The position numbers and the translations under genes are program-made. The notes beneath the pieces were generated by a model. The model did no database searches. It saw nothing but the letters and a program-made list of their open reading frames with translations, and was not told where the DNA came from. From NCBI GenBank assembly GCA_900143615.1, contig FREU01000001.1:70941-134940 (forward strand): 64,000 bases of DNA. Reading direction: 5' to 3'. Of the stretch, positions 2,227 to 62,291 are shown in pieces (the first letter of the stretch is position 1; each line of letters starts with the position of its first letter). The stretch is from Rhodobacteraceae bacterium Alg231-30 (lineage in GTDB: Bacteria > Pseudomonadota > Alphaproteobacteria > Rhodobacterales > Rhodobacteraceae).

Positions 2227-2355
2227 AATTTTGACTGTCACGTTGGTGGGTGTCGGTTAAGTATATGAATTTATTTGAAATTTTTTCTAGGAAGAAGAGC
2301 GTCGTTTCCGATACGCCCCGCGCATGGTCCCTCAACACTGTGCGAAGGAGGACCA

Positions 2356-3222
2356 ATGACCTTATTCTTTGTCGTGACGCTTAATGGGCTGACGCTCGCA
2401 GCGCTATACTTTCTCGCCGCCAGTGGATTTAGCCTCATTTTCGGTCTCATGCGGACCGTGAATATGGCCCATGGTGCCTTGTTACTATTTGGCGGCTATG
2501 TCGGCTGGTCAGTTGTGGACGCAACAGGGCTATGGGCGCTTGGCGTCATGGCGGGTGGGCTGGCTGCTGCGCTGGCTGGGGCGCTGGTACAAATCGGAGT
2601 GCTTGGCCGGATGCAAGGAGATGAGCTGCGCCAAACGCTTGCCTCGATAGCGATCTCAATCATTTTGGCCGATCTTATGCTATGGATATGGGGCGGCACA
2701 ACCTATCAGGTTCGCACGCCCAGCTGGCTTACTGGCGGTACGCGTATCGAAGTGCTGGGGATCGGCTATGCGACCGTGCGCCTATACTTGATGGTCTTTG
2801 CCTTGTCCGTTGGTGTCGGTCTTTGGCTGTTTATCCAAAAAACGCGCATTGGCGCTGTGATACGGGCCGGTGTGGATGATCAGGACATGCTGCGCGCACT
2901 TGGGTATCCAATCAATCGCATTTTTGTTCTGGTTTTTGCCATGGGTGGAATGCTCGCGGGAATGGCGGGCGTCATTGCGGGCTCGGCCCTGTCGATCGCG
3001 CCCGGAACCGATCTCCAATTTCTGCTGTCATCGCTCGTCGTGGTGATTGTGGGCGGCATGGGCTCTGTCGGGGGGGCAGCTCTTGGCGCACTTTTGATTG
3101 GCTTGGCAGAACAATATGGCCTTGCTTACGCCCCAACATACGCCGCCGTCGTAACCTTTGTAATCATGGTCTTTGTCCTCGCCGTGAGACCACAAGGCCT
3201 GCTGGGGAGGGCTGAGGCATGA
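2356..3222 (+). CDS. Branched-chain-amino-acid-type ABC permease (LivH family)
   Basis: A 288-residue inner-membrane permease. I chose ATG 2356 over an upstream in-frame TTG-type start because AAGGAGG lies 5 bases before it and the product then starts with a normal LivH N-terminus (MTLFFVVTLNGLTLAALYFL). The GFSLIFGLMRTVNMAHG segment and the late VVVIVGGMGSVGGAALGAL segment are characteristic of LivH. It is the first gene of a rightward operon and overlaps the LivM-like gene by 4 bases. The substrate is unlikely to be assignable from sequence; the Tm-1/PEP-hydrolase neighbours suggest an organic acid or similar small molecule rather than an amino acid. Confidence 0.92.
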   Translation: MTLFFVVTLNGLTLAALYFLAASGFSLIFGLMRTVNMAHGALLLFGGYVGWSVVDATGLWALGVMAGGLAAALAGALVQIGVLGRMQGDELRQTLASIAISIILADLMLWIWGGTTYQVRTPSWLTGGTRIEVLGIGYATVRLYLMVFALSVGVGLWLFIQKTRIGAVIRAGVDDQDMLRALGYPINRIFVLVFAMGGMLAGMAGVIAGSALSIAPGTDLQFLLSSLVVVIVGGMGSVGGAALGALLIGLAEQYGLAYAPTYAAVVTFVIMVFVLAVRPQGLLGRAEA

Positions 3223-4184
3223 GATACTTTTTGGTTTTGATCCCGCTGGCTTTGTTACCGCTGCTGCTCAATGATTTTTGGGTGAGCCAAGTGTTGACGC
3301 GTGCATTGATCCTCGGCGTCATCGCGTTGAGTCTTAGTTTTCTTGCGACATACTTGGGGGTCGTTTCGTTTGCCCAAGTTACCTTGGCTGGCGTTGCCGG
3401 ATACGCGGTGGCCTACTTCGGTCCAAACACAGTGGGGCTGGGATTTCCGCTACCGCTGTATGTAAGCTTGCCCATTGCGCTGCTCCTTTCAATGGCCGCA
3501 GGGGCTTTGATTGGACTGGTGGCGCGCCGATCGCGGGGCATTTATGCGATTATGATTACCTTGGCGATTGGCGTGGCGTTCTTCTACTTCACGCGACAGA
3601 ACTATGCGTTGTTCAACGGATTTACCGGCTTTTCTGGCGTAATTGCCCCCAAGATGGGAGAAGGCAACTGGGGCGATCCCATGCCTCTTTATTTTCTGGC
3701 TCTTGGCGTCTCGGTCATTTGTGTGGTGCTCGTAAATGGCTTTGTGCGCTCGCCTTTGGGGCTGGCGGTCCAAGCGGTCCGAGATGCGCCTGGGCGGCTT
3801 TTGGCGCTGGGAATTCCGACCACTTATCCAATTGTGGCCGCCTTTGCATTCTCGGGATTGATCGCGGGAAGTGGTGGTATCTTGAATGTCTGGTTTCAGG
3901 AACGAGTTTCAAGTTTCTCGGTTGGAATTGGCCCGATCATCGATGTTCTGATCATCAGCGTTATTGGCGGGTTGCGCCACCCGACCGGAGCCTTCGTTGG
4001 CGCAATTGTCTACGTCATGCTCGATATATTTGCGATCGATCTGATTGATCGCGACCGCTTCAACCTTCTTATCGGAATCGTCCTTTTGGCAATCGTTATG
4101 GCAGCCCCAAACGGGCTTCACCAATTGGCGATTGACTGGGTCGGAAAACTGCGCGGACGCGCAGAACAACCAAGAACCAACTGA
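3219..4184 (+). CDS. Branched-chain-amino-acid-type ABC permease (LivM family)
   Basis: A 321-residue polytopic membrane protein, the second permease of the importer. Typical LivM stretches are present: ALSLSFLATYLGVVSFAQVT near the N-terminus and SVIGGLRHPTGAFVGAIVYV near the C-terminus. It overlaps the LivH-like gene by ATGA. The substrate-binding gene follows after 21 bases. Confidence 0.92.
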   Translation: MRYFLVLIPLALLPLLLNDFWVSQVLTRALILGVIALSLSFLATYLGVVSFAQVTLAGVAGYAVAYFGPNTVGLGFPLPLYVSLPIALLLSMAAGALIGLVARRSRGIYAIMITLAIGVAFFYFTRQNYALFNGFTGFSGVIAPKMGEGNWGDPMPLYFLALGVSVICVVLVNGFVRSPLGLAVQAVRDAPGRLLALGIPTTYPIVAAFAFSGLIAGSGGILNVWFQERVSSFSVGIGPIIDVLIISVIGGLRHPTGAFVGAIVYVMLDIFAIDLIDRDRFNLLIGIVLLAIVMAAPNGLHQLAIDWVGKLRGRAEQPRTN

Positions 4185-4205
4185 GAACTTTCATGGGAGG
4201 AAAAA

Positions 4206-5444
4206 ATGAAAAGTCTTAAAATAGCGGTATCGGCCATTGCGTTGAGTGCGGCGGCGTTTCCAGCTTCGGCGGACGACATCACAATCGGTGTCATCTCCAT
4301 TCTCGAAGGCGCGTTTGCAGCTTTGGGCCAAGACGGCATTCGCGGTGTTGAAATGGCAGTCGCCGACGCAGGTGGCCAAGTCGCGGGCAACAACATTGAG
4401 CTGGTCGTGGTGTCATCAGATGCTAGCCCTGACAGCGCAGTTTCAGCAGCACGCCGTTTGATTGAACAAGACGGCGCACAGATCATCGTCGGCCCATTGT
4501 CTGGCTCTGAGGGCTTGGCGTTGCGGGATTTGTCACGCTCTTATCCAGATGTGACCATCATCAACGGCTCTTCCGGTGCGCAAGACACCACATTGCGCGA
4601 TCCGTCTGAGAACTTCTTCCGCTTCGGCGGCGATGGTGCACAGTGGATGGCGGGTGTTGGCACCTATGCCCACGACACAATGGGCTATGAAAAAGTCGCC
4701 ATCGTGGCTGAGGACTACTCGTTTCCATATACACAGGTTCTGGGCTTTATGACCGAATTCTGCAGCGCGGGTGGCACGGTCCCAGCTAAGTTCTGGACGC
4801 CCATCGGCAATGCTGACTACTCGTCTGTCGTCTATTCGATCCCGCAAGATGTTGATGCGATTTTTGTAGCCCTTGGCGGATCAGACGCTGTGAGCTTTCT
4901 GACGCAGTATCAGCAAGCAGGCTTTAACACGCCGATCATTGGCGGCTCGATCACAATTGACCAAACCGTTTTGTCTTCAGATGCCGCGTTTCGGGATATG
5001 TTGATTGGCGCACCAGCTGGCACACCAACTGTTTCGGACTATGACAGCGCAGAGTGGCAGGCGTTCTCGGCAACTTATTCGGAAATGTTCCCTGACGGCC
5101 TTGGCGCACCTTCGATCTTTGCACACCACTACTATATGGGCGCACAAGCTGCATTGTTGGGGCTGGAAGCTGTGGGTGGTGATCTGTCAGACGGCGGAAA
5201 GGCCTTCCGCGCAGTGCTGAACGATCTTGAGTTCACGCAACCAACCGGTGGCACAATGCGTATCGACGAGAACCGCAATGGCATCGTCGACAACTTTGTC
5301 ATCGAGGTGTTTGAGCGTGAAGACGGCTCGCTTGGCACACGTGCGATTGAGGTGGTGAAAGACGTCAATCAGACCCTTGGTCAAGACGTTGAGACGTTCC
5401 TTGCTGCGGGGCCAGTGAGCCGGGACAACCCATCTTGCCCCTAA
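4206..5444 (+). CDS. Periplasmic substrate-binding protein, Liv/amide type
   Basis: A 412-residue type-1 periplasmic binding protein. Residues 1-22 are a Sec signal peptide ending ASA before DDITIGV. The body begins with the usual ITIGVISILEGAFAALGQDG pattern of the Leu/Ile/Val-binding family and contains a conserved VGPLSGSEG ligand-loop region. GGGAGG precedes the ATG. It lies between permease and ATPase genes, so it supplies ligand to this importer. The ligand is unknown. Confidence 0.92.
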   Translation: MKSLKIAVSAIALSAAAFPASADDITIGVISILEGAFAALGQDGIRGVEMAVADAGGQVAGNNIELVVVSSDASPDSAVSAARRLIEQDGAQIIVGPLSGSEGLALRDLSRSYPDVTIINGSSGAQDTTLRDPSENFFRFGGDGAQWMAGVGTYAHDTMGYEKVAIVAEDYSFPYTQVLGFMTEFCSAGGTVPAKFWTPIGNADYSSVVYSIPQDVDAIFVALGGSDAVSFLTQYQQAGFNTPIIGGSITIDQTVLSSDAAFRDMLIGAPAGTPTVSDYDSAEWQAFSATYSEMFPDGLGAPSIFAHHYYMGAQAALLGLEAVGGDLSDGGKAFRAVLNDLEFTQPTGGTMRIDENRNGIVDNFVIEVFEREDGSLGTRAIEVVKDVNQTLGQDVETFLAAGPVSRDNPSCP

Positions 5445-6214
5445 ATACTGAACAAAAAACAACGACTGCCAATGCCTTGGAGACCCAAGGCATTGGTAAA
5501 CGGTTTGGTGGTTTCTGGGCGGTCAAGGATGTGTCGTTTTCGGTCAAACCGGGCGAGCGGCGTGCAATCCTTGGTCCAAACGGTGCAGGTAAAACCAGTT
5601 TGTTTAATATCCTGACCGGCGACTATGTCGCATCCAGTGGCGCGATCAGTTTGTTTGGCGAGGATGTCACCAAGCAATCAATCCCCAAACGTATCAAGCG
5701 GGGGCTGCGGCGGACCTATCAACATGCCTACCTATTTGATGGGCTGAGTGTTTGCGACACGCTCTTCCTTGCCGTTGCCGGAGTGCGAGGTGGATGGCGG
5801 CAAGTCTTGCCAGTGCGCTCAAACGATCCGCGCCGCGAGGAGGCGGAGCGCCTAGCAGACGTTTGTGGTCTTGCGAGCTTCTTGGACCGGATGGTTTTAG
5901 AGCTTAGCCATGGTCAGCGCCGCCAACTTGAAATCGGTATCGCTTTGGCCGAAGACCCCAAGGTGCTTTTGCTGGACGAGCCTGCTGCCGGTCTTTCTCC
6001 TGCAGAAAGACCTCTTTTGAGCAAGTTACTTTTGTCTCTGCCAGCAGACATCACAGTTATTCTGATCGAACACGATATGGATATCGCGTTTCAAACATCT
6101 GAAAGCGTCACGGTTCTGTTTAACGGCCAACTCATGGCTGAAGGCACGCCCGAAGAGGTCATGGCCGACAAGGATGTTCATCAAATTTACGTTGGAGGAG
6201 CGCATGGGCACTGA
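5435..6214 (+). CDS. ABC transporter ATPase (LivG family)
   Basis: A 259-residue cytoplasmic ATPase. Walker A is GPNGAGKTS (about residue 49), the signature is LSHGQRRQLEIG and Walker B is VLLLDEPAAG. The start appears to be TTG at 5435, overlapping the binding-protein stop by 10 bases; no in-frame ATG lies nearby upstream of the ATPase core. The signature reads LSHGQ, as in other LivG proteins. Confidence 0.92.
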   Translation: MPLNTEQKTTTANALETQGIGKRFGGFWAVKDVSFSVKPGERRAILGPNGAGKTSLFNILTGDYVASSGAISLFGEDVTKQSIPKRIKRGLRRTYQHAYLFDGLSVCDTLFLAVAGVRGGWRQVLPVRSNDPRREEAERLADVCGLASFLDRMVLELSHGQRRQLEIGIALAEDPKVLLLDEPAAGLSPAERPLLSKLLLSLPADITVILIEHDMDIAFQTSESVTVLFNGQLMAEGTPEEVMADKDVHQIYVGGAHGH

Positions 6215-6920
6215 AGCACTCCTGCGATTGAGCAACATAAATCTGCACTATGGTTCAAGCCATGTGTTGCATGACGTCTCTTTAGAGCTCAGCGACCGAC
6301 CGCTAGGTATCTTGGGCAGAAACGGCGTCGGCAAGACCAGCATCTGCAACGCGATTTTCGGGTTGGAGCCGATCACGTCGGGCACAATCATGTTGGGCGA
6401 TCAGGACTTGTCAAAGCTGACACCTGAAAAGCGCGCACAAGCAGGGCTGGGATATGTCCCGCAAGGGCGTCGGATATTCCGGTCTCTAACCGTTGAGGAG
6501 CATTTGCGCATTCTTGAGCGAAAAGGCGGCAATTGGACAACTGAGAGAGTTTACCAGACCTTTCCACGCCTCAAAGAGAGGCGCAGAAATCTTGGCGATC
6601 GCCTTTCAGGGGGCGAGCAGCAAATGCTGGCCATCAGCCGCGCATTGTTGCTGAACCCTCAGGTACTGGTTCTTGATGAACCCACAGAGGGGCTTGCGCC
6701 TGCGATCGTGACAGACGTCGTCGAATTGATAAACCAAGTCGCCCAAGAAGGGACGTCGGTTCTTTTGGTTGAACAAAACCTGCACGCAGCCTTGGCCGCG
6801 GTGCAAGATGTAGCAATTATTGTAGGCGGGGAGGTGGTTGAGAGAGTCACCGCAGAGGCGCTGGAGAACGATCCAAAAATGCAAAAACAACACCTTGGCT
6901 TGGAGGCCGCGGGTGCTTGA
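6204..6920 (+). CDS. ABC transporter ATPase (LivF family)
   Basis: A 238-residue ATPase partner of the LivG-like subunit. ATG 6204 is preferred over an in-frame ATG 30 bases upstream because GGAGG sits 5 bases before it. Walker A is GRNGVGKTS, the signature LSGGEQQML and Walker B LVLDEPTEGL. It overlaps the end of the previous gene by 11 bases and ends 19 bases before the Tm-1-like gene, so importer and enzymes appear to share one transcript. Confidence 0.92.
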   Translation: MGTEALLRLSNINLHYGSSHVLHDVSLELSDRPLGILGRNGVGKTSICNAIFGLEPITSGTIMLGDQDLSKLTPEKRAQAGLGYVPQGRRIFRSLTVEEHLRILERKGGNWTTERVYQTFPRLKERRRNLGDRLSGGEQQMLAISRALLLNPQVLVLDEPTEGLAPAIVTDVVELINQVAQEGTSVLLVEQNLHAALAAVQDVAIIVGGEVVERVTAEALENDPKMQKQHLGLEAAGA

Positions 6921-6939
6921 GACTATGAAGGGGAGGTCA

Positions 6940-8133
6940 ATGAAAAAAGCATATGTCATCGGAACAGCCGACACCAAAGGGCCGGAATTAGCCTTTGTGC
7001 GGGACCTAATATCCAAGACAGGTTTGGAGACTGTCTTGGTAAATGTAGGCACGCGCGGTGGCGAAGATGCTGCCGATATTACGGCTGCCGAAGTCGCAGC
7101 CAGTCATCCAAGCGGACCATCGGCGGTTTTTGTAAATGATCGAGGCGAAGCGGTGATGGCGATGTCAGATGCCTTGTTGCGCTTCATACAGGATCGCGAC
7201 GACGTCGGCGGCGTTATCAGCTTGGGCGGGTCCGGCGGATCAAGTCTTGTGGCACCCGCGATGCAGGCCCTTGAGGTTGGTATTCCCAAGGTTTTGGTTT
7301 CCACACTTGCCTCTGGCGATGTCTCAGCCTTTGTCGGGGCATCTGATGTAAACATTTTTCATCCAGTCACTGATGTACAGGGATTGAACCGTGTTTCCCG
7401 TCAGCTGCTTGGAAATGCGGCGCACGCGCTCGCGGGTATGATGAACTACACAGTGCCAGTTTCTGTGGACGATCGTCGCGCTCTCGTGTTGTCGATGTTT
7501 GGCGTCACAACGCCTGCAGTACAAAGTATGGTAGGGGCGCTTGAAGACGAATTTGATTGTCTTGTTTTTCACGCAACAGGGACCGGCGGCCGCGCGATGG
7601 AACTGCTTGTGGATCAGGGCAGTATCAGTGGCGTTCTGGACATCACAACAACCGAAGTTTGCGACATGATTGTCGGCGGCGTGTTGTGCGCTGGAGAGGA
7701 TCGGTTTGATAGTATAGCGCGCAGCCAAGTCCCCTATGTTGGATCATGTGGAGCGCTGGATATGGTGAATTTTTGGGGACGTTCAACGGTTCCTGAACAG
7801 TTCAATGAGCGCAATTTATATGTTCACAATGCGCAAATCACACTCATGCGAACCACAGCTGAAGAATGTCAGAAAATCGGAACGTGGATTGGAAACAAGT
7901 TGAATAAATGCGACGGCGATGTCCGGTTCTTGATCCCCTTAAAAGGGGTGTCAGCGCTGGACATCGAAGGCGGCCCGTTCTGGGACCCCGCGGCAAATGA
8001 CGCTCTCTTTTCAGCGTTGCGAGACACTGTGCAGCAAAACGAAAAACGTAAACTGATCGAACTGGATCTTCATATCAACGACCCAGCCTTTGCAGCCGCG
8101 GCCGTTGCAGAATTCAAAGCCATAGACAAATAA
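6940..8133 (+). CDS. Tm-1-like ATP-binding (UPF0261) protein
   Basis: A 397-residue protein that matches the N-terminal half of the tomato Tm-1 protein family (UPF0261). Seen: VIGTADTKGPELAFVRDLI at the start, the glycine-rich SLGGSGGSSL near residue 90, HATGTGGRAMELL near 210 and the C-terminal IPLKGVSALDIEGGPFWDP. The start at 6940 follows GGGGAGG. In plants the Tm-1 N-terminal and barrel domains are one protein; here they are neighbouring genes (barrel at 8146). The biochemical reaction of the bacterial pair is, to my knowledge, not established. Linkage to an importer suggests catabolism of an imported compound. Confidence 0.9.
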   Translation: MKKAYVIGTADTKGPELAFVRDLISKTGLETVLVNVGTRGGEDAADITAAEVAASHPSGPSAVFVNDRGEAVMAMSDALLRFIQDRDDVGGVISLGGSGGSSLVAPAMQALEVGIPKVLVSTLASGDVSAFVGASDVNIFHPVTDVQGLNRVSRQLLGNAAHALAGMMNYTVPVSVDDRRALVLSMFGVTTPAVQSMVGALEDEFDCLVFHATGTGGRAMELLVDQGSISGVLDITTTEVCDMIVGGVLCAGEDRFDSIARSQVPYVGSCGALDMVNFWGRSTVPEQFNERNLYVHNAQITLMRTTAEECQKIGTWIGNKLNKCDGDVRFLIPLKGVSALDIEGGPFWDPAANDALFSALRDTVQQNEKRKLIELDLHINDPAFAAAAVAEFKAIDK

Positions 8134-8145
8134 GGACCCAAACAC

Positions 8146-9000
8146 ATGCCCGAGACAAACCGACAAACCATTCTTGCAAATCTGCGCGCCAAAATTGACG
8201 CTGGCCAATCGCTTGTGGGGGGGGGCGCGGGAACAGGCCTGTCCGCCAAATGCGAAGAAGCTGGCGGCATTGATTTAATTGTTATCTACAATTCCGGTCG
8301 ATATCGCATGGCAGGCCGTGGGTCATTGGCTGGCTACATGTCCTATGGAAATGCCAACGAAATTGCCAAAGAACTTGGCCACGAAGTCCTGCCAATTGTC
8401 AAAAAGACACCTGTGCTGGCAGGTGTGAACGCGACTGATCCGTTCTGCATTATGGACAAGCATCTCAATGACCTTAAGGACTTGGGGTTTGCCGGTGTTC
8501 AGAATTTTCCCACAATGGGTCTTATTGACGGGCGGTTTCGGGCAGAATGCGAAGCCACTGGAATGCGCTATTCTCAAGAGGTCGACATGATCGCAATGGC
8601 GCATGAAAAGGACATGCTGACAACACCATATGTGTTTAGCGCGGAAAACGCGGCTGACATGGCCCGTGCTGGGGCCGATGTGATTGTCGCGCATTTTGGT
8701 CTGACGACGGGTGGCAGCATTGGTGCAGACGACACAGCGCCGGATTTTGAGGAATGTGCACGCTTGTATCGCGAATGGTCAGATGCGGCAAAATCCGTGC
8801 GTGATGATCTCTTGTTTATAGCGCATGGCGGCCCGTTGGCGGAGCCTGCAGACGCTCAGGCATTTCTGAATCTCTGCCCTGATTGCCATGGGTTTTATGG
8901 TGCTTCTTCTATGGAACGGCTTCCAACAGAGCGTGCCATTACTGATCAAGTGCGCGCCTTTGGGGATCTCAACCGTGGTGCAAAAGTTAAGGTGAACTGA
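8146..9000 (+). CDS. Phosphoenolpyruvate-hydrolase-family TIM-barrel protein
   Basis: A 284-residue enzyme-like protein of the family that forms the C-terminal half of Tm-1. Features: [20 protein letters not shown] near residue 25, [20 protein letters not shown] near 50, [31 protein letters not shown], and [12 protein letters not shown] near 185. It follows the Tm-1-like gene by 12 bases. The family name comes from a remote PEP-mutase relationship; the substrate here is unknown. Two further copies of this fold occur at 1-1539 and 1536-2180. Confidence 0.88.
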
Positions 9001-9853: not shown

Positions 9854-9882
9854 CCTGCATCAACCTGTTACACTTCTGTTAA
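9854..9882 (+). promoter_or_regulatory. Candidate Pho box (PhoB site)
   Basis: Three heptamers with an 11-base period: CCTGCAT (9854), CTGTTAC (9865) and CTGTTAA (9876), separated by 4-base spacers. The known PhoB repeat is CTGTCAT with 4-base AT-rich spacers; the second and third units each match 5 of 7. The site is 45 bases upstream of the binding-protein gene at 9927. It predicts induction of the operon by phosphate starvation. Confidence 0.6.
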
Positions 9883-9926
9883 ATGAAACTGCGAAACCCC
9901 GCTTGTAAAAACAAGCTAGGTTTAAA

Positions 9927-11507
9927 ATGCCAAACTCCCCAATTTCACGCCAAGCGTTCGCGCGTCTTTTGGCTGCCACCGCAATCGCATCTCTTTCCAC
10001 CGGTGCGCTTGCGCAAGATCGCCCTGATTTGGTCGTAGGAGTCGCCGAACTACCCGCGACACTTGAGCCTGGAAAAGAGCTTTCCAACGTTGGAACGCGG
10101 GTCAACTATAGCATCTTTGACACGCTAATCCGTCGCGACTTTCTGTCGGAAGAAGGCGCCGGCGGTGCATCTCTTGTCCCGGGCCTTGCCAAAAGCTGGG
10201 AGCGGCTAGACGAACTGACGCTAGAGATCAAACTGCATGAAGACGTTCTGTTTCACAATGGTGCCGTTCTCACTGCAGATGACGTTGCTTTCACATTTTC
10301 GCCTGATCGCTTGAGCGGCGCGAATGCGATCCTTCCAGAAGGGCCTGCATACTTCTCTGTCTTGGATGAAGTCCAGGTGATAGATCCGCTGACCGTTCGG
10401 TTTGTAACCAAGAACCCCGATCCCCTGTTGGAGCAGCGTTTGGCATCTTGGGCCTCCTGGATTGTGAACGCCGAAGACTGGACTGCAAAGGCCGAAGAAA
10501 ACGGCGGCATTCCGATGTTCCCAGTTGGCACCGGCCCTTTTAAACTTAGCGAATATCGCGCCAATGAGGCTATCCACCTTGTCGCCTTTGATGACTACTT
10601 CGACGGCACGCCATCGGTCGATACCGTTACGTTTCGCGAGATACCCGAGCCTTCGACTCGTGTCGCCGGCCTTGTTTCAGGTGAATTTGACATCATCACC
10701 AACGTTGCGCCTGACCAAATCGATCAAATCAACGGCTACGACGGGATTGAAACGCGCTCGGTGACACTCGCGAACTCTCACGTGCTGCGCTACAATGTTT
10801 CCGATCCAGTGATGAGTGATGTACGCATCCGTCAGGCGATGAATCTGGGCATTAACCGCCCACTCTTGAACGAAGCGCTTTGGGGCGGTCAGGCTGTTGT
10901 GCCGAATGGTCACCAGTATCCTGAATATGGCGACATGTACAATCCGGACCACGTTGGTCTGGAGTATGACCCAGAACGTGCGAGAGCCTTGATCGAAGCT
11001 TCGGACTATAATGGCGAGCTGATCAAGTATTCGACCCAAGCCAATTATTACCTCAACGCTCTCTATGCAGCCCAGGCTATCATCGAGATGTGGAAAGAAA
11101 TTGGCCTGAATGTTGAGCTGGATGTCGTCGAAACTTTCTCGGGCACTGATCCGAGGGAACTGCAAATCCGAACATGGTCCAACTCGACACGTTACCCTGA
11201 TCCGGTTGGCGGCCTCTGGAATCTTTGGGGTCCATTTGGTTCCCCTCAGCGGGAAGGCACATGGGTTGAAACCGCGAACCTTGATCGCTTCAACGAGCTT
11301 GGTGCGACCTTGCAGGGGACAGTTGATTTTGACACGCGTAAGGATGCGGCATGGGAAATGCTGGACATCTGGAAAGAAGACGCGCCGGGGACGATCCTCT
11401 ATCAGCCGCTGGAAACATACGGCGTCGCCCAAAATGTCCAATGGCAGCCCTACACCTTCTACTACATGGACCTGCGGCCCTATAACTTGACGGTCGAAGA
11501 AAAATAA
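9927..11507 (+). CDS. Family 5 extracellular solute-binding protein (peptide/agrocinopine type)
   Basis: A 526-residue periplasmic protein with a signal peptide (residues 1-29, ending GALAQ) and the family 5 pattern: VNYSIFDTLIRRDF, LVPGLAKSWERLDELTLEIKL, FHNGAVLTADDVAFTF, and VRIRQAMNLGINRPLL. The length fits OppA/DppA-like proteins (500-550). Peptide, nickel, opine and sugar-phosphodiester ligands occur in this family. The operon also encodes a glycerophosphodiesterase, a second phosphodiesterase and a HAD phosphatase, and has a Pho-box-like site, so a phosphodiester ligand is more likely than a peptide. AccA, the agrocinopine receptor of Agrobacterium, belongs to the same family. Confidence 0.9.
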   Translation: MPNSPISRQAFARLLAATAIASLSTGALAQDRPDLVVGVAELPATLEPGKELSNVGTRVNYSIFDTLIRRDFLSEEGAGGASLVPGLAKSWERLDELTLEIKLHEDVLFHNGAVLTADDVAFTFSPDRLSGANAILPEGPAYFSVLDEVQVIDPLTVRFVTKNPDPLLEQRLASWASWIVNAEDWTAKAEENGGIPMFPVGTGPFKLSEYRANEAIHLVAFDDYFDGTPSVDTVTFREIPEPSTRVAGLVSGEFDIITNVAPDQIDQINGYDGIETRSVTLANSHVLRYNVSDPVMSDVRIRQAMNLGINRPLLNEALWGGQAVVPNGHQYPEYGDMYNPDHVGLEYDPERARALIEASDYNGELIKYSTQANYYLNALYAAQAIIEMWKEIGLNVELDVVETFSGTDPRELQIRTWSNSTRYPDPVGGLWNLWGPFGSPQREGTWVETANLDRFNELGATLQGTVDFDTRKDAAWEMLDIWKEDAPGTILYQPLETYGVAQNVQWQPYTFYYMDLRPYNLTVEEK

Positions 11508-11529
11508 TGGTTTTCGATCGCAAAACTTT

Positions 11530-11555
11530 GGGAGGCGGCTCTTTTGCAGCCTCCC
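11530..11555 (+). promoter_or_regulatory. Intercistronic hairpin after the binding-protein gene
   Basis: GGGAGGC at 11530-11536 pairs perfectly with GCCTCCC at 11549-11555 across a 12-base loop. It lies between the binding-protein stop (11507) and the probable start of the first ATPase. Without a T tract it is more likely an RNA-stability or attenuation element than a full terminator, as is common after high-copy binding-protein genes. Confidence 0.5.
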
Positions 11556-11566
11556 ATTTCCCATTC

Positions 11567-12544
11567 ATGGCCGCAATGAGCCCGGTGCTGACTGTTCAGA
11601 ACCTGAAGGTAAGCTCTTCTAAAGCGGATCTGGTTGAAAATGTGAGTTTTTCCGTGAGGAGAGGCGAAACGCTATGTCTTGTCGGGGAGAGCGGCTGCGG
11701 CAAAAGTCTGACGTGCATGTCTATCCTTGGGCTGCTGGATAATGGGCTGCAAACTAGTGGTTCGATTGAGCTACTAGGGCAGGAGACGGTGAACGCGTCC
11801 GAGGCCACGCTCAACAGATTTCGCGGCGACGATGTCACCGTGATTTTCCAAAACCCCATGGCTGCGCTGAACCCGATCCAGCGGGTTGGACGGCAAATCC
11901 TAGAGGGCATCTATCGGCACAGTGAGTTGCGCGGCGCAGAGGCTGAACGACACATGGAACAACTGCTTGACCAAGTTGGCATCCCTTCCGTCAAGCGCAG
12001 CAAAAACCTGTTTCCGCATCAGCTCTCTGGTGGGATGTGTCAACGCATCATGATCGCAATGGCCCTTGCATGTAAGCCGAAGCTTCTTATTGCGGACGAA
12101 CCGACCACGGCATTAGATGTGACTATTCAGGCGCAAATCCTGCAGTTGATCAGGGACCTTCAGGCTGAACTGGACCTTGCGGTGATTTTTGTCACGCATG
12201 ACCTTGGCGTTGTCGCTGAAATCGCGGATCAGGTGGCGGTCATGTACTCCGGTCGTATCGTGGAGACGGGCCCGGTGGCGGATCTGTTTGATCATGCGGC
12301 CCACCCTTATACGAAAGCCCTGATGAATAGCCGTATTGGGTTTGATCGCCCCCGGGGAACCAAACTTGAGGCGATTGAAGGCACAGTCCCATCGCCGATG
12401 GCGCGCCCTGAGGGGTGTACGTTCGCACCACGTTGCGCACAGAGAGCAGCGATATGCACGACCACACCGCAGTTTCAACAAGCGCGGTGCACAAATGTGG
12501 CCTGCCATCTCACACCATCCAAAGAAATGGCAGCGGCACTATGA
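11567..12544 (+). CDS. Peptide-type ABC transporter ATPase (OppD/DppD family)
   Basis: A 325-residue ATPase when started at ATG 11567 (ATG 11576 is an alternative). An in-frame ATG at 11507 would read through the hairpin and adds a non-family N-terminus, so I rejected it. Walker A GESGCGKS, signature LSGGMCQRIM, Walker B LLIADEPTTALDVT. The C-terminus carries the oligopeptide-transporter extension with the cysteine cluster GCTFAPRCAQRAAIC, which in relatives binds an iron-sulfur cluster. It overlaps the next ATPase gene by ATGA. Confidence 0.9.
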   Translation: MAAMSPVLTVQNLKVSSSKADLVENVSFSVRRGETLCLVGESGCGKSLTCMSILGLLDNGLQTSGSIELLGQETVNASEATLNRFRGDDVTVIFQNPMAALNPIQRVGRQILEGIYRHSELRGAEAERHMEQLLDQVGIPSVKRSKNLFPHQLSGGMCQRIMIAMALACKPKLLIADEPTTALDVTIQAQILQLIRDLQAELDLAVIFVTHDLGVVAEIADQVAVMYSGRIVETGPVADLFDHAAHPYTKALMNSRIGFDRPRGTKLEAIEGTVPSPMARPEGCTFAPRCAQRAAICTTTPQFQQARCTNVACHLTPSKEMAAAL

Positions 12545-13380
12545 TTCCAGATCTTGCAAATGGCGTCCTAGCGACCGATTTGGTTCAGGCCTATCCTGAC
12601 GGATACCGGCTCTTTGGAAAGCCAAAGATGAACAAGGCTGTGGACGGAGTGAGTTTTCGTCTACACGAAGGGGAAACTCTCGGAATCGTTGGAGAGAGTG
12701 GTAGTGGGAAGTCAACGCTGGGTCGAATGATTGCTGGTATAGAGACCCCGTACAGCGGCGCGGTTTCATTTTGGGGAGAACCCTACGCACCCGTAGGTTC
12801 CTTCCTGTGGCGACAGCAACGTCGACACGTGCAATTGGTTTTTCAGAACCCTGCCGCTGTTGTCGATCCTCGCTGGACAATTCATGCCCAAGTTCGCGAA
12901 GCATTGCTGACGCATGAAGCTCTGACTCGTGAAACAGCAGACGAGCGGACGCAAGAAGCGCTCGCGCTCGTGGGCCTAGGGTCAATGGGGCATAGGTTGC
13001 CACATCAATTGTCGGGAGGACAGTTACAGCGGGCCGTTATCGCACGCGCGTTGATACTGCGGCCCCGCCTTCTAATATGCGACGAAGCCGTCAGCGCGCT
13101 TGATGTTTCGGTTCAGGCGCAGATCATCAATCTTTTACTCGACCTGCGCGAACGATTGAAGCTGACCATCATGTTCATTTCTCACGATCTGTCCGTGGTG
13201 CGCCATATCAGCCATCGCATGGGCGTGATGTATCACGGGAAGCTTTTGGAAATTGGCGATACTCAAGCGCTCTTTGACGCGCCGAGACATGAGTACACGC
13301 GCCGCCTCTTGAGTGCGATCCCAGTCGAAAAACCTCGCCGATCCAAAAAACGCGAAATCGACAATTCCAGAGCCCTTTGA
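12541..13380 (+). CDS. Peptide-type ABC transporter ATPase (OppF/DppF family)
   Basis: A 279-residue ATPase. ATG 12541 overlaps the OppD-like stop by 4 bases and is chosen over an in-frame ATG 126 bases upstream. Walker A GESGSGKS, signature LSGGQLQRAV, Walker B LLICDEAVSALDVS. In Walker B the usual DEP is DEA, but the catalytic Glu is kept. It pairs with the OppD-like subunit to energise the permeases at 15563 and 16501. Confidence 0.9.
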   Translation: MIPDLANGVLATDLVQAYPDGYRLFGKPKMNKAVDGVSFRLHEGETLGIVGESGSGKSTLGRMIAGIETPYSGAVSFWGEPYAPVGSFLWRQQRRHVQLVFQNPAAVVDPRWTIHAQVREALLTHEALTRETADERTQEALALVGLGSMGHRLPHQLSGGQLQRAVIARALILRPRLLICDEAVSALDVSVQAQIINLLLDLRERLKLTIMFISHDLSVVRHISHRMGVMYHGKLLEIGDTQALFDAPRHEYTRRLLSAIPVEKPRRSKKREIDNSRAL

Positions 13381-13398
13381 GGCTCTCAAAGGAAAAAT

Positions 13399-14133
13399 AT
13401 GAAACATAGTCTGATGAAAATCATCGCTCATCGTGGCGATAGCACTCACCATGCCGAAAACACGCCAGCAAGCTGGTCAGCCGGTTATTCCAAGGGTGCT
13501 CATGCCGTGGAGGCTGATATCCGTTTTCTGCGAGATGGAACCGGAATTTGCTCTCACGATCCAACTCTGAAACGGCTGTTTGACCGCCCAGAGCGTGTGG
13601 AGGGCCTCTCTATTCCCGAACTTCAGGGCATGGGAATTGGGCCTGAGCATGTCGGGCTGTTCGCTGATGTCTTGCGTTTTGCAGAAGCGGGACGGCCAAT
13701 TGTGCTTGACCTTAAAGACGAAAGTCCGCGTGCACTGGAGTTAATCTGGGAGGACATTCAAGCGCATGTGTCTGTTCCCCGAAGGCACAATGTTATTGTC
13801 GGGTGCCATAGCCGGAAAACCGTCGCTTTTTTCGCCGCCAAGCGACAAGTAACCATTCTGGCTTTAATGCCAAACGCGAACGATGGCGCTTCTTTTTTTG
13901 CAGAAGGGGCTACGATCATTCGCCTTTGGGAGAGTGACGTCACAGATCAGCGCATCCGCGACCTCAAAGCATTGGGGGGCGATGTTTGGGTGACTACAGG
14001 ATCTGGCGAGACCGACAGGCGTACTGGTGACACGAACGGGGAAAGCCTGCGTTTCTTATCAGAAGCCCGAATTGACGGTGTTCTTGTGAACGACGTGGCG
14101 CTTTCAAAATCACTTCTAGAGGGCCTGAAATGA
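13399..14133 (+). CDS. Glycerophosphodiester phosphodiesterase (GDPD family)
   Basis: A 244-residue cytoplasmic GDPD/UgpQ-type enzyme. The family motif is clear: IIAHRGD at residues 8-14, ENTPASW with the metal-binding Glu, EADIRFLRDG and the catalytic-loop SHDPTLKR. No signal peptide is present, so it acts on an imported phosphodiester, releasing an alcohol and a monophosphate. A GGA-type ribosome site precedes ATG 13399; ATG 13414 is a possible internal start. It lies between the ATPase and permease genes, as AccF-type phosphodiesterases lie with the agrocinopine importer. Confidence 0.9.
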   Translation: MKHSLMKIIAHRGDSTHHAENTPASWSAGYSKGAHAVEADIRFLRDGTGICSHDPTLKRLFDRPERVEGLSIPELQGMGIGPEHVGLFADVLRFAEAGRPIVLDLKDESPRALELIWEDIQAHVSVPRRHNVIVGCHSRKTVAFFAAKRQVTILALMPNANDGASFFAEGATIIRLWESDVTDQRIRDLKALGGDVWVTTGSGETDRRTGDTNGESLRFLSEARIDGVLVNDVALSKSLLEGLK

Positions 14134-15566
14134 CGCAAGGATCGACACTTCTAGTGGTATTTGATGGGCTGCGCCGAGATCGCGCGACACCCGATATCAT
14201 GCCAAATCTGGCCCGTTTTATGGAAGAAGGGGCAAACTTTATCAATTCGCGGTCGATTTTCCCAAGCGAGACGCGGGTCGCGGTAACCTCGGTCATGACG
14301 GGATGCCCGCCAGCGGACCATGGTTTGGTCGCCAACCAGTTTTATCACCCTCTACAGCCGGAGGCTCCATTCAAAACTGCAGAGTGGGAGCAATTGGAGA
14401 TGGCGGCCAACGCGGGCCAACTTCTGGACTGCAAGACCATGGGGCAGCGTATGGCCGAAAACGGCCGAACCATGGCTGTTGTGAGCACTGGCTCAAAGGG
14501 CGCGTCGCGCATGATGAATTCAAGCGCTCACGCGTTAAACCAACCCGTATTCACCGTTCACGGCCCGCCGGTTTCAACAGAAGATTTGCATGAAGTCATA
14601 ACCGCGGGACAGGGCGACATCCCTGCGGCCGGGGCGCCAAACAGCGCGCGCGTTGCCTATGCAACAGACGCGCTACTGGATTTCATCTATCCAAAGTTCT
14701 CGCCGGATATGTGTGTGTTTTGGATGAGCGATCCCGACATCACGTCGCATCAGTTTGGAGTGACGTCTCCTGAGACTGTCGTTGCGCAAAAAACATGTGA
14801 TGAAAACTTTGGCCGGATCCTCGCATGGTGGCGCGACGGCAACGGGCCGGAGAACATCGTCGTGATGTCAGATCACGGGCAAATCACCGGCGCGTGTCAA
14901 TTGGAAACGGTGGACATTATACCAGCGCATTTCGGCAAAGCATCCATCGGCGCATTTAGTGGTATTTACATGGATGATCCATCTGATGGCCGGAAAGCCG
15001 AGGTTGTTGATTGGTTGGTGGAACAGGATTTCTGTGGTCTGGTCTTTGCTTCGGCAGGAGATGGAACAGCCATCAAAGGCGCGTTTCCTTGGACCGCTGT
15101 GCGTAACAATCACGCACGCGGGGCGGATGTGGGCTTTACTCTGAGGTCGACCAATTCCTCCGAAACTCATGACCCAAAAGCTGACGAATGTATTTTTGCC
15201 GGCGGTATTCCTGTTGGAGGGGGGATGCATGGTGGCCTGAACAAAGGTGAATTGTCCACGGTACTCGCTGCACAAGGACCTGCATATCGCACCCAATTTC
15301 CTTCTGACACACCGTGTTGGCTCCCTGATATCGTGCCAACGATCCTTACAACCATGGATTTGCCTGTAGACGGGACAAGTGGACGACCAATGGTCGAGGC
15401 CTTGGCTGGGGATGATCAGAAATTTGGACAGGCGCCATCTGTGGAAACCCGACTGCTGAGTGTCACTCACAAGGAACACGAACAGTTTTTGCGCCAATGG
15501 GTCGTCAATGGCAAAACCATTGTTGATTGTGGCTGGACTTCGGGACGCGGGGCATGGGGGCAATGA
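14130..15566 (+). CDS. Alkaline-phosphatase-fold phosphodiesterase (nucleotide pyrophosphatase/phosphonoacetate hydrolase-like)
   Basis: A 478-residue protein of the type I phosphodiesterase/nucleotide-pyrophosphatase superfamily. The N-terminal metal-binding strand LLVVFDGLRRDR and the nucleophile region FPSETRVAVTSVMTGCPP (Thr or Ser nucleophile) are followed by WMSDPDITSHQFG and VVMSDHGQ, which supply metal ligands. No signal peptide is seen, so it is probably cytoplasmic. It overlaps the GDPD gene by ATGA. Having two different phosphodiesterases in one operon suggests the importer takes up more than one ester or that a two-step cleavage occurs. Confidence 0.82.
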   Translation: MTQGSTLLVVFDGLRRDRATPDIMPNLARFMEEGANFINSRSIFPSETRVAVTSVMTGCPPADHGLVANQFYHPLQPEAPFKTAEWEQLEMAANAGQLLDCKTMGQRMAENGRTMAVVSTGSKGASRMMNSSAHALNQPVFTVHGPPVSTEDLHEVITAGQGDIPAAGAPNSARVAYATDALLDFIYPKFSPDMCVFWMSDPDITSHQFGVTSPETVVAQKTCDENFGRILAWWRDGNGPENIVVMSDHGQITGACQLETVDIIPAHFGKASIGAFSGIYMDDPSDGRKAEVVDWLVEQDFCGLVFASAGDGTAIKGAFPWTAVRNNHARGADVGFTLRSTNSSETHDPKADECIFAGGIPVGGGMHGGLNKGELSTVLAAQGPAYRTQFPSDTPCWLPDIVPTILTTMDLPVDGTSGRPMVEALAGDDQKFGQAPSVETRLLSVTHKEHEQFLRQWVVNGKTIVDCGWTSGRGAWGQ

Positions 15567-16504
15567 GCATCCATTTCCTTCTGACAAAACTTGCCAGAGG
15601 TATAATCACGCTTCTGCTCGCAATGACCTTTGTTTTCTTTGTTTTACGCGCGTCCGGTGATCCCGCGCAGATCATGTTGGCGGATGACGCATCGCCCGCT
15701 GCAATGGAGGCTTTTCGTGAGCATTGGGGGCTCGACCGTTCTTATCTGGAGCAGTATTTTGCCTATCTGGGATCAGTTATCCGCGGTGATTTTGGTGTCT
15801 CCTTCCGCGACGGGCGACCAGCTCTCGAAGTTATTGCCGAGCGAATTCCAGCTACTCTCCAGTTGGGGGCTGCGGCACTTCTGCTAACGCTCGTCATCGG
15901 AATTCCCGCTGGCGTTTTTGCTGCTTTACGCCGGGGTAGTTGGGTCGATCACTTGACGATGACGGGGACAATTTTTGGGCACAGTATTCCGAATTTTTTC
16001 CTTGGTATTTTGTTGATCCTGCTGTTCTCAATGACGCTTCGATGGTTGCCTAGTTCCGGCACCGGCACAATTTGGCATCTTTTGATGCCTGCTGTGACCC
16101 TTGGCACAGCGAGTGCCGCAACGATTGCACGGTTTACGCGATCTTCGATGTTGGACATTTTGAACAAACCCTTCATGCGCACGGCCAAGGCCAAAGGCAT
16201 AACGCCCAAAAATCGGGTTTTGCGGCATGCCTTGCCGAATGCGGCAATCCCCGTGGTGACCGTCGTCGGGATGCGCATTGGTGGTCTTATTGGTGGGGCA
16301 GTCACTATTGAGACAGTTTTCGCATGGCCCGGGATCGGGCTGCTTTTAGTCAACGCCGTTAGCCAACGCGACCTTGCGGTCGTTCAAGGGGTCATCCTGC
16401 TGATTGCACTGACTATGGTGATCGTGAACCTCATCGTTGATCTCACCTATGGCTGGCTGGACCCGCGTATCGAAGTCCACAATAAACGAAAGGCGACAGC
16501 ATGA
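15563..16504 (+). CDS. Peptide-type ABC permease (DppB/OppB family)
   Basis: A 313-residue permease. ATG 15563 gives a 4-base overlap with the upstream stop and the standard N-terminus; an in-frame ATG at 15527 would overlap 40 bases and is less likely. Typical elements: FVFFVLRASGDPA near residue 25, the linker DHLTMTGTIFGHSIPNFF and the EAA-like loop FMRTAKAKGITPKNRVLRHA that contacts the ATPases, then GGAVTIETVFAWPGIG. Confidence 0.9.
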   Translation: MSIHFLLTKLARGIITLLLAMTFVFFVLRASGDPAQIMLADDASPAAMEAFREHWGLDRSYLEQYFAYLGSVIRGDFGVSFRDGRPALEVIAERIPATLQLGAAALLLTLVIGIPAGVFAALRRGSWVDHLTMTGTIFGHSIPNFFLGILLILLFSMTLRWLPSSGTGTIWHLLMPAVTLGTASAATIARFTRSSMLDILNKPFMRTAKAKGITPKNRVLRHALPNAAIPVVTVVGMRIGGLIGGAVTIETVFAWPGIGLLLVNAVSQRDLAVVQGVILLIALTMVIVNLIVDLTYGWLDPRIEVHNKRKATA

Positions 16505-17406
16505 CTTCTGTTGATTTTTCCGAAGGTCTGAGAGAACGGCGCCGGTATCGATTTCTGACCCGAATATGGAAGTCGCGTCCTTCGCTTGTGATTGGGCTAT
16601 GCATTTTCTGGCTTGTCTTTGTTGTCTTCACGGCGCTCTTTGCACAGGCCATTGCGCCGTTTGGATATGCCGAGCAAAGTTTGCTAGAACGTCTGAACCC
16701 GCCTGCCTTTATGGGCGGTTCATCAAAGTATTGGCTTGGATCCGATAACCTTGGACGTGACGTCCTCAGTCGCGTGCTTTACGCCATGCGCACAAGCATT
16801 CTGATTGCGGTGATGGCAACCATTATCGGGGCAACTGTTGGCACTGTGCTCGGCATTGTCGCAGCACATTTTCGTGGGTGGGTCGACGACGTCATCATGG
16901 TCATGGTCGACTTTCAGGCGTCTATGCCGTTCCTGATCGTTGCCCTCGCGGTGCTCGCGTTTTTTGGCAACAACTTTGTTCTTCTTGTGATTTTGATCGG
17001 CCTGTTTGGCTGGGACGGATATGCGCGCATTGCGCGTGGTTTGGTTTTGTCAACAAACGGACAAGGCTATGCCCATGCCATTCGTACCTTGGGGGTCCAT
17101 CCGGCCAAGGTCTACTGGCGTCACGTTGTGCCAAATATGATGGGGGTCATTTTGGTGCAGGTCACGTTGAACTTTCCAGAAATCATCTTGCTTGAAACGT
17201 CGTTGTCGTTCCTGGGTCTTGGCGTGCAACCGCCTGCAACGAGCCTGGGTTTATTGTTGGGTGAAGGGCGTAACTACCTTGCGACTGCTTGGTGGATCGG
17301 CGTACCCGCTGGTGTCGTTATCTTCTTGACCACCCTGTCTGTCAGCCTCTTGGGTGATTGGATACGCGACAAACTCGACCCGAACCTACAGGACAAATCC
17401 GAATGA
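16501..17406 (+). CDS. Peptide-type ABC permease (DppC/OppC family)
   Basis: A 301-residue permease overlapping its partner by ATGA. It has the N-terminal extension and first membrane helix of DppC (SLVIGLCIFWLVFVVFTALF), the WLGSDNLGRDVLSRVLYAMR motif, and the cytoplasmic EAA-type loop YAHAIRTLGVHPAKVYWRHV. It completes the importer formed with the genes at 9927, 11567, 12541 and 15563. Confidence 0.9.
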   Translation: MTSVDFSEGLRERRRYRFLTRIWKSRPSLVIGLCIFWLVFVVFTALFAQAIAPFGYAEQSLLERLNPPAFMGGSSKYWLGSDNLGRDVLSRVLYAMRTSILIAVMATIIGATVGTVLGIVAAHFRGWVDDVIMVMVDFQASMPFLIVALAVLAFFGNNFVLLVILIGLFGWDGYARIARGLVLSTNGQGYAHAIRTLGVHPAKVYWRHVVPNMMGVILVQVTLNFPEIILLETSLSFLGLGVQPPATSLGLLLGEGRNYLATAWWIGVPAGVVIFLTTLSVSLLGDWIRDKLDPNLQDKSE

Positions 17407-18194
17407 ATACTGTTGCTAGCACAATTCGCTTAAACTCGATTGACGAGATCGAGTTTAACGCTGTCCTGTCCGATCTTGACGGTGTTGTCTATCGTGGAGA
17501 ACAGGCCATCCCCGGTGCAGTAGAGAAGTTCAATTATTGGCACCGCTCCAATGTCCCTTATTGTTTTGTCACAAACAACGCTGAAAAAACGCCCGCTGAG
17601 TTCGCGGAGAAAATTGCCCGACTGGGGATTTCCTGCTCGGCTGAACAAGTCGTAACATCCGGGGATGTAGCGCTGGACTATGTGAAGGGGAGATACAAGC
17701 AGGGCACTCTTATTTTTGTCGTCGGCTCTCCCTCTTTCAAACTCCGTTTTGAACAGGCTGGTTTTACACTGGTCGATAGTGGAGCTGAGGTTGTCATTGT
17801 CGCTCTGGATCGAAAATTCGACTACACAATGATGAAAATGGCTGTGCAAAATATCTTGTCCGGAGCCGAATTTATAGGCACCAATCCTGATGTCATTCGC
17901 CCGACGGCAGACGGCTTTGAGCCGGGCACAGGAGCTCTGCTTCAATCAATTGCGGCGGCCAGTGGCATTAAACCTGTCATCTTGGGCAAGCCTTCAGGAG
18001 ACATTCTGAAGGCGGCACTCGCGCGCATTGGCGTAAAAACGGCAAGCACCATAATGTTGGGGGATCAGCTTGAAACCGATATTCTGGCGGCAAGAAACGC
18101 AGGCATCCGGGGGGTGTTGCTCGAAACTGGCGTCCCCATTAAGCATGGTAGCCTGACGCATGCAGACCACGTCATTCGATCATTGGAAAGCTAG
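17403..18194 (+). CDS. HAD-IIA (NagD-like) phosphatase
   Basis: A 263-residue HAD hydrolase. Motif I is LSDLDGVVYRG with both nucleophile and acid Asp, motif II VTNNAEKTP, motif III LGKPSGD and motif IV MLGDQLETDI. The C2-type cap between motifs II and III places it with NagD, PNPase and related sugar- or glycerol-phosphate phosphatases. ATG 17403 overlaps the permease stop by ATGA. In context it would dephosphorylate the monophosphate made by the phosphodiesterases, as AccG does in the acc operon. That role is inferred. Confidence 0.88.
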   Translation: MNTVASTIRLNSIDEIEFNAVLSDLDGVVYRGEQAIPGAVEKFNYWHRSNVPYCFVTNNAEKTPAEFAEKIARLGISCSAEQVVTSGDVALDYVKGRYKQGTLIFVVGSPSFKLRFEQAGFTLVDSGAEVVIVALDRKFDYTMMKMAVQNILSGAEFIGTNPDVIRPTADGFEPGTGALLQSIAAASGIKPVILGKPSGDILKAALARIGVKTASTIMLGDQLETDILAARNAGIRGVLLETGVPIKHGSLTHADHVIRSLES

Positions 18195-18443: not shown

Positions 18444-19004
18444 CCCCCTAAAATTAGTGGTGTTCACGATTGGAATTTTCTCAGCAAGATATCCGAGGAG
18501 ATTTCAATGAAGAAGGGACGATATTGCGACGCGTCGATCATCGGTATCTTGAAGCAAGCGGAGCGCGGTGTGCCGGTTGTCACTGCCAGCAGAACGGGTT
18601 GTGCGCAGCTTGAACCAGATCATTGAATGGCGCGGAACTCCCAAAGCAATTCGTGTGGACAATAGTCCCCAATATATCAGTGGAAAGCTGATGCAATGGG
18701 CCGCGAAGCGCAATGTTCGGCTCGACTAGATCCAGCCCCACTCTCGTGAATGGGAAACGGCATTGTCGTGTAATGGGAAAGCCACAACAGAACGCCTATA
18801 TTGTGTGTTACAATCGCACCGTTCGCGGCGAGTGGTTGGGCATTATATCTTTGAACTCATCGAGGAGACACAAGACCAGGCGACTGAATGGCTCCGGACT
18901 TACAATAACGAGCGACCCAACATGGGGATCGGCGGCATGACACCCGTTATGAAACTAAAAGCAGCCGCGTGAATTTCACGGTTGAGCCCCACTAAAATGG
19001 GAGG
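18444..19004 (+). mobile_element. Degraded IS3-family insertion sequence with imperfect terminal repeats
   Basis: The left end (from CCCCCTAAAATTAGTGG at 18444) and the right end (18982-19004; reverse complement begins CCTCCCATTTTAGTGG) are imperfect inverted repeats of the IS51/IS407-like type. Between them lie fragments of orfA and orfB. The element is far shorter than an intact copy of about 1.2-1.3 kb, so a large internal deletion has occurred. I see no clear target-site duplication. Confidence 0.75.
18507..18972 (+). pseudogene. IS3-family transposase remnant (orfA start fused to orfB end)
   Basis: ATG 18507 after GAGGAG begins MKKGRYCDASIIGILKQAER, the usual orfA N-terminus. After about 25 codons the sequence jumps to orfB in another frame: RVVRSLNQIIEWRGTPKAIR, VDNSPQYISGKLMQWAAKR, then an in-frame stop. 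The final part reads WLRTYNNERPNMGIGGMTP and ends at 18972. The middle of both genes is deleted, the first catalytic Asp is gone, and the position usually holding the DDE Glu reads YIVCYN instead of YIERYN. It cannot encode a working transposase. Confidence 0.85.
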
Positions 19005-61358: not shown

Positions 61359-61387
61359 GTGTCACAAAACATTCATTTAGCTGTTAA
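61359..61387 (+). promoter_or_regulatory. Candidate Pho box upstream of phnC
   Basis: Three heptamers with an 11-base period: GTGTCAC (61359), CATTCAT (61370) and CTGTTAA (61381), spacers AAAA and TTAG. The known repeat is CTGTCAT. It is about 55 bases before the phnC start, as expected for PhoB control of phosphonate uptake. Confidence 0.55.
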
Positions 61388-61403
61388 ATAAGTTTTTAAC
61401 AGC
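61380..61403. promoter_or_regulatory. Dyad GCTGTTAAA-N6-TTTAACAGC
   Basis: A perfect 9-base inverted repeat overlaps the last unit of the candidate Pho box. It lies 38 bases upstream of the phnC start and could bind another regulator or modulate transcription. It does not look like a terminator. Confidence 0.4.
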
Positions 61404-61440
61404 GGCTCTAATCAGCTCGAGACACTTCCGGGGGATAGAC

Positions 61441-62235: not shown

Positions 62236-62291
62236 GTTTCATCAAAGCACCACATTTGAATGTGGGCTATTATCAACTGGAGAGAAGATCG

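Follow-up and report, generated by a model that had tools for sequence, protein, structure and literature searches.

A putative Pho-controlled AccA-type importer operon with two phosphodiesterases and a phosphatase in Rhodobacteraceae bacterium Alg231-30

We analyzed a 64,000-nucleotide stretch of contig FREU01000001.1 of Rhodobacteraceae bacterium Alg231-30 (hereafter the window; a window coordinate is the position on this contig, C10, minus 70940), in which eight tightly packed genes (9927–18194) follow a Pho-box-like repeat. Profile searches and reading of the open reading frames (ORFs) showed that these genes encode a family 5 substrate-binding protein, two ATPases, a GDPD-family enzyme, an alkaline-phosphatase-fold phosphodiesterase (PDE), two permeases, and a HAD-IIA phosphatase, in agreement with the families and order given by the original prediction. 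The gene coordinates listed below assume ATG starts.

9854–9882, plus strand: Pho-box-like repeat with units CCTGCAT, CTGTTAC and CTGTTAA in 11-bp phase and a strong core at 9865–9882 (weight matrix)
9901–9916, no strand assigned: inverted repeat GCTTGT-AAAA-ACAAGC between the Pho box and the start codon (read from the sequence)
9927–11507, plus strand: AccA-family (family 5) substrate-binding protein with a signal-like N-terminus (SBP_bac_5, E=1.2e-71; tree; predicted structure)
11507–12544, plus strand: OppD-type ATPase (family profiles)
12541–13380, plus strand: OppF-type ATPase (family profiles)
13399–14133, plus strand: GDPD-family phosphodiesterase, no evident signal peptide (GDPD, E=3.4e-16; motifs)
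14130–15566, plus strand: NPP-fold (alkaline phosphatase superfamily) PDE, no evident signal peptide (Phosphodiest PF01663, E=2.5e-27; fold)
15563–16504, plus strand: DppB/OppB-type permease (family profiles)
16501–17406, plus strand: DppC/OppC-type permease (family profiles)
17403–18194, plus strand: HAD-IIA phosphatase (TIGR01460, 153.3 bits)

Five junctions in the operon are ATGA overlaps, the two genes that meet at 11507 share one base (TAATG), and an 18-bp gap precedes 13399; overlaps this tight throughout the run make it likely that the eight genes share a single transcript. In GC content, the operon (0.537) is close to its surroundings (0.541). The N-terminus of the binding protein is signal-like, whereas the GDPD, PDE, and HAD proteins enter their domains straight or almost straight, and hydrolysis would thus be expected in the cytoplasm, as an import-then-hydrolysis route needs. 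None of the operon genes matched a sugar regulator, a kinase, or a sugar enzyme in the family profile searches, and no AccR-type DeoR/GlpR regulator was found among the flanking genes scanned, with small and minus-strand ORFs outside the scan.

The binding protein encoded at 9927 aligns with AccA, the binding protein of the Agrobacterium agrocinopine importer, at E=4.5e-115 and with DppA at E=3.9e-32, and the top 11 structural matches of its predicted structure are all AccA. Sequence, tree, and predicted structure are consistent in this respect, and by these comparisons the protein is a member of the AccA family. A comparison with the AccA pocket, proposed with the original prediction, gave a divided result. 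The side chains that hold the phosphodiester in AccA (N54, Y375, Y376, and S419, AccA numbering) are all kept, as are the pyranose-contacting Y145, W178, and N284; however, only three of the four residues that anchor the pyranose OH1 (N54, N284, S419, and E510) are present, as E510 is replaced by Tyr. The four-residue phosphate grip occurs in 25/29 relatives and is absent from all 10 further family 5 binding proteins that this genome encodes, and Glu is found at position 510 in only 4 of the 25 relatives with the grip. Since the sugar-anchoring E510 is replaced, the ligand need not be agrocinopine. The known AccA ligands are all sugar-2-phosphate compounds, and glycerol esters are unreported (PMC4526662). 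The cargo probably bears on its phosphate a head group resembling a sugar or polyol; its plan would be that of an agrocinopine, though it need not be one. A second cassette recurs in relatives (L081, L120, L122–L124, L126, L127, L129, and L006:16346-23234), in which HAD-IIA and two permeases are followed by an AccA-family binding protein and then a metallophosphoesterase. Its binding protein keeps the phosphate grip, and Arg-Gln-Leu replaces Y145, W178, and N284; the cassette is probably another phosphodiester importer for a different head group.

The enzymes of the operon keep the residues expected for catalysis. The GDPD protein scores 60.5 bits with PF03009 (cut-off 23.6) and carries the HRG, EAD, and SHD motifs, which we take to be the catalytic motifs of the family; it is 31% identical to AccF over 99 amino acids and 37% identical to the K84 gdpD product over 227. 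Agrocinopine synthase and AvrBs2 are also GDPD relatives (PMC12807533); the window GDPD is unlikely to act as a synthase, given the importer and the phosphatase encoded next to it. Structural comparison showed that the PDE adopts the NPP fold, and D12, T48, N69, D203, H207, D248, H249, and H367 are invariant in 20/20 aligned sequences, where they presumably form a two-metal site with a Thr nucleophile and an Asn. The PDE is only 15–22% identical to Xac NPP and ENPP6 and differs from them in being putatively cytoplasmic, as read from its N-terminus, and bound to an importer in one operon. Its assignment as PhnA phosphonoacetate hydrolase was rejected (TIGR02335, 32.7 bits against a cut-off of 407.55); PhnA is also absent among the 50 structural matches listed for the PDE, which excludes nothing. 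Relatives of the PDE adjoin carbon-phosphorus (C-P) lyase genes (L008) or phosphoenolpyruvate (PEP)-mutase-family genes (L009 and L011), and the PDE family may also act on phosphonate esters. The last protein of the operon matches HAD-IIA (153.3 bits against a TIGR01460 cut-off of 100.15) and contains DLDG, TNN, and GKP, which we assume to be the HAD motifs. A hidden Markov model (HMM) scan found no inositol monophosphatase near the window operon; HAD-IIA stands in the AccG-type place.

All Pho-box scores given here rest on an untrained weight matrix. With this matrix, CTGTTACACTTCTGTTAA at 9865–9882 is the top 18-mer on both strands of the window (15.3 bits; runner-up, 12.1), a score that the shuffled 250-bp leader reaches in 1/1000 cases. 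Two overlapping registers of the pstS leader of this genome give 15.0 and 14.5 bits. Of the three repeat units originally proposed, the core is thus pstS-like, whereas the unit from 9854 (CCTGCAT) is weak, as the pair that includes it scores only 9.0 bits. Among the leaders of AccA-type loci, Mesorhizobium AR07 scores best (18.8 bits) and the window next, followed by L117 (14.2), L077 (12.8), and L067 (12.5), and all five boxes are oriented with the gene. The operon is probably under phosphate control. The inverted repeat at 9901–9916 could be an operator or a small hairpin. Elsewhere on C10 (L111, 177500-183500), a 14.4-bit Pho box lies in the leader of a locus where a GDPD with a signal-like N-terminus stands beside phnM- and phnF-like genes, read by eye.

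We then surveyed AccA-type loci, for whose choice only the binding protein counted; each genome contributed one locus, and our own genome was excluded (22 loci from the family and 9 from the class). A diesterase gene (GDPD, NPP-type, or metallophosphoesterase) was present within 7 kb at 15/22 family loci and 8/9 class loci, and the PDE family itself is found beside AccA-type importers in other genomes. The same HMMs, which were seeded from AccA-type loci, found phosphoesterases at 0/9 control loci; Pfam searches of the genome raised this to 2/9, so the fair contrast is 23/31 versus 2/9 (Fisher p=0.008, with related loci not independent). In one control locus (L139:1401-9933, contig C7 of our own genome), a PF01663 phosphodiesterase and a tandem pair of family 5 binding proteins, neither with the AccA grip, are separated by about 4 kb; in another (L142:4575-8701, contig C10), the gene for a family 5 binding protein is directly preceded by one that resembles CpdB, a 2',3'-cyclic-nucleotide phosphodiesterase (467.5 bits, cut-off 486). 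A monoesterase gene (HAD-IIA, inositol monophosphatase, or histidine phosphatase) was detected at 10/31 loci, all of them from the family set. This slot is filled by HAD-IIA in the window and near 8/22 family loci, by an inositol-monophosphatase-type enzyme in C58 and Devosia, and by a histidine phosphatase at pAtK84b, L069 (Pfam), and L070 (by similarity), the HMM for the last family being seeded from the same three loci that it matches. Taken together, these results indicate that AccA-type loci carry diesterases of unrelated families and monoesterases of unrelated families.

The operon closest to that of the window, and the closest binding protein, were found in the second acc-like operon of the opine plasmid pAtK84b (Agrobacterium radiobacter K84, L021:13833-19893), which has the order binding protein, ATPase, ATPase, GDPD, permease, permease. 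Its binding protein is 59–60% identical to the 9927 protein, and the two are sisters in the tree (support 100/100); however, it lacks the NPP-type PDE, HAD-IIA, and a strong Pho box, and has a histidine phosphatase and a SmoC-like regulator in divergent position. That phosphatase gene (L021:12978-13622) is annotated as chsB 'mannopine synthesis-like'; its assignment to the histidine phosphatases comes from Pfam (E=9.3e-30) and fits a phosphatase role for the neighboring acc-like operon. The acc operon of pTiC58, which serves agrocinopine uptake and breakdown, likewise combines an AccA-type importer with a GDPD-type diesterase and a phosphatase, and its AccA, about 42% identical to the 9927 protein, shares the phosphate-holding residues. 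The window operon differs from it in the Tyr at position 510, the added PDE, the Pho box, HAD-IIA instead of an inositol-monophosphatase-type phosphatase, and the absence of an AccR-type regulator among the flanking genes scanned. The acc likeness originally proposed therefore stands for the AccA-E-type importer and GDPD-type diesterase in one run, whereas the phosphatase is not of AccG's kind (the annotated inositol monophosphatase family of C58) and the resemblance of the GDPD to AccF is only weak. Because E510 is replaced and neither an AccG-type phosphatase nor, among the flanking genes scanned, an AccR-type neighbor was found, we regard the locus, as far as its genes indicate, as an acc-type import-and-hydrolyze line and not an acc operon in the strict sense. 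The extra PDE is indeed absent from the C58 and K84 sets, as had been predicted, but it recurs beside AccA-type importers elsewhere.

Two further systems resemble the operon in its predicted function. The Ugp importer of Phaeobacter is a Pho-controlled organic-phosphorus uptake system with a diesterase, GDPD (PMC10132767); its importer family is another one, since the binding protein of the window operon is of family 5 and the ATPases are of Opp type, with no Ugp-type binding protein or ATPase. MED193_11288 of Phaeobacter, a PhoB-dependent 'predicted phosphodiesterase', lies next to an importer of the sugar type (PMC10132767). XanT-XanP of Xanthomonas, which serves xanthosan use, takes up and hydrolyzes a sugar phosphodiester as food through a TonB-dependent transporter and a 2H-type phosphoesterase (PMC12807533), which is no more than a functional analogy. 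Among the matches listed from the open-licence literature, no title or abstract beginning described an AccA-type importer under Pho control or an NPP-type enzyme next to such an importer.

Based on these observations, we consider it probable that the operon encodes a Pho-regulated importer and a cytoplasmic hydrolysis line for a phosphodiester used as a phosphorus source. When phosphate is short, PhoB would turn the operon on, as the box suggests; the AccA-type protein would grip the intact phosphodiester by its phosphate group in the periplasm, as the conserved grip suggests; and the Opp/Dpp-type importer would bring the diester in whole. The GDPD and the NPP-type PDE, judged by their families, the NPP fold, and active-site residues, would then cleave it in the cytoplasm, and HAD-IIA would free phosphate from the resulting monoester. 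The two unrelated diesterases might process several diesters that enter via one importer, or either ester bond of one diester. The phosphodiester-importer interpretation of the original prediction is supported where it could be tested on the sequence, namely by AccA kinship, the phosphate grip, the pstS-like box, and the retained catalytic residues.

Several observations weigh against this reading. In the binding protein, M372, T430, and E434 of AccA differ as well as E510, and Pfam aligns only residues 11–94 of the 244 of the GDPD protein, its first third. No diesterase was visible at 8/31 AccA-type loci, and some HMM seeds were taken from counted loci, which inflates the count of 23 somewhat. 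Most AccA-type leaders, including those of C58 and K84, have no notable Pho box, and two control leaders score 13.2 bits (L143, on the opposite strand) and 12.4 bits (L141, about 300 bp off). The strict pattern CTGTNANNNNNCTGTNA is not enriched genome-wide (4 matches versus 12 for the reversed control) and, being rarer than that control, provides no evidence alone; the evidence for the Pho box is its position and its likeness to the pstS box. The evidence from the box is good for this operon and weak for the AccA-type family.

Other cargoes have also to be considered. The operon could be an alternative to Ugp that takes up ordinary lipid-derived glycerophosphodiesters (glycerophosphocholine, glycerophosphoethanolamine, or glycerophosphoglycerol), with HAD-IIA acting on glycerol 3-phosphate; this is unlikely, though a serious candidate, given that the pocket keeps the pyranose-contacting residues, that the known AccA ligands include no reported glycerol ester (PMC4526662), and that roseobacters use Ugp-type importers for that job (PMC10132767). 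A phosphonate ester, from which the PDE would free a phosphonate for C-P lyase or other enzymes to finish, would explain why PDE relatives lie beside C-P lyase and PEP-mutase-family genes and is in line with phnC and phnD in the window; however, the operon encodes no phosphonate enzyme but a GDPD and a HAD phosphatase, phosphonate genes were found at only 3/6 plasmid PDE loci inspected, and the PhnA model was far missed, which makes this cargo improbable. We give a similarly low probability to an opine-like carbon source, whereby the sugar part is used, not the phosphorus, and the Pho box arose by chance. The closest operon, that of pAtK84b, adjoins traR, a SmoC-like sugar regulator, and nopaline genes, and xylose-isomerase-like genes lie near 6/31 AccA-type loci (two of the six seeded the HMM), but in the window operon sugar genes are lacking and a pstS-like Pho box stands in front.

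An ordinary peptide or nickel importer that shares its transcript with phosphoesterase genes by chance is very improbable. The generic family models and those for the ATPases and permeases name Opp, Dpp, and Nik relatives; however, the E-value favors AccA by about 80 orders of magnitude, the grip is kept, and the pairing with phosphoesterases recurs across loci. The ordinary peptide importer was rejected on the AccA kinship of the binding protein, its pocket, and the partner genes.

With a cytoplasmic phosphodiester line as the preferred reading of the operon, a wider proposal is possible, which we put forward tentatively and hold at somewhat less than even chances: the Ti-plasmid opine importer may be one representative, since domesticated, of a phosphodiester-importer family that is widespread in alphaproteobacteria, in which a phosphate-gripping importer is constant and the diesterases and monoesterases are exchangeable, and the window operon may be a representative under Pho control whose cargo comes from a so far undescribed pool of sugar-type phosphodiesters in the environment. 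In nature, phosphodiesters make up a substantial share of organic phosphorus. To our knowledge, few direct importers for them have been described (Ugp and some sugar-type systems), and most of what is known to date about sugar-type phosphodiesters comes from crown galls and a few pathogens. The records that we examined label such proteins 'ABC transporter substrate-binding protein' or 'oligopeptide'. If the proposal is true, a phosphate-gripping branch of the peptide-importer superfamily is an overlooked phosphorus route, and the agrocinopine system falls within a general nutrient-scavenging family.

The operon was likely transferred between lineages, judging from its relatives. A plasmid of the gammaproteobacterium Halomonas sp. 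PA16-9 (L006) has the same gene order, with identities of 52% for the GDPD, 70% for the PDE, 77 and 83% for the permeases, and 73% for ATPase 2, whereas PDE relatives from the window's own family reach 30–37% identity and none was found at 1e-20 in G210, a genome of the same genus. The Halomonas locus differs in that its binding-protein gene (L006:7548-9189) is split over frames in the record, through sequencing error or decay, its HAD gene is found only in the neighboring second cassette (29% identical), and its best Pho-box score is 10.4. A scan of the genome contigs with the PDE found one weak relative. No match was obtained with phage sequences or by megablast of 24.9 kb of the window against plasmids. 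About 300 bp downstream of the operon lies a decayed transposase (18480–18975), IS3-like by eye, with several stops; upstream (2275–9000) is a branched-chain-amino-acid-type importer with UPF0261 and PEP_hydrolase-like genes. Farther along the window, phnC and phnD (61359–63194) follow a weaker three-unit Pho-box-like repeat (phnC leader, 11.1 and 10.3 bits), and the best plasmid relatives of this PhnD are from Rhodobacteraceae such as Ruegeria.

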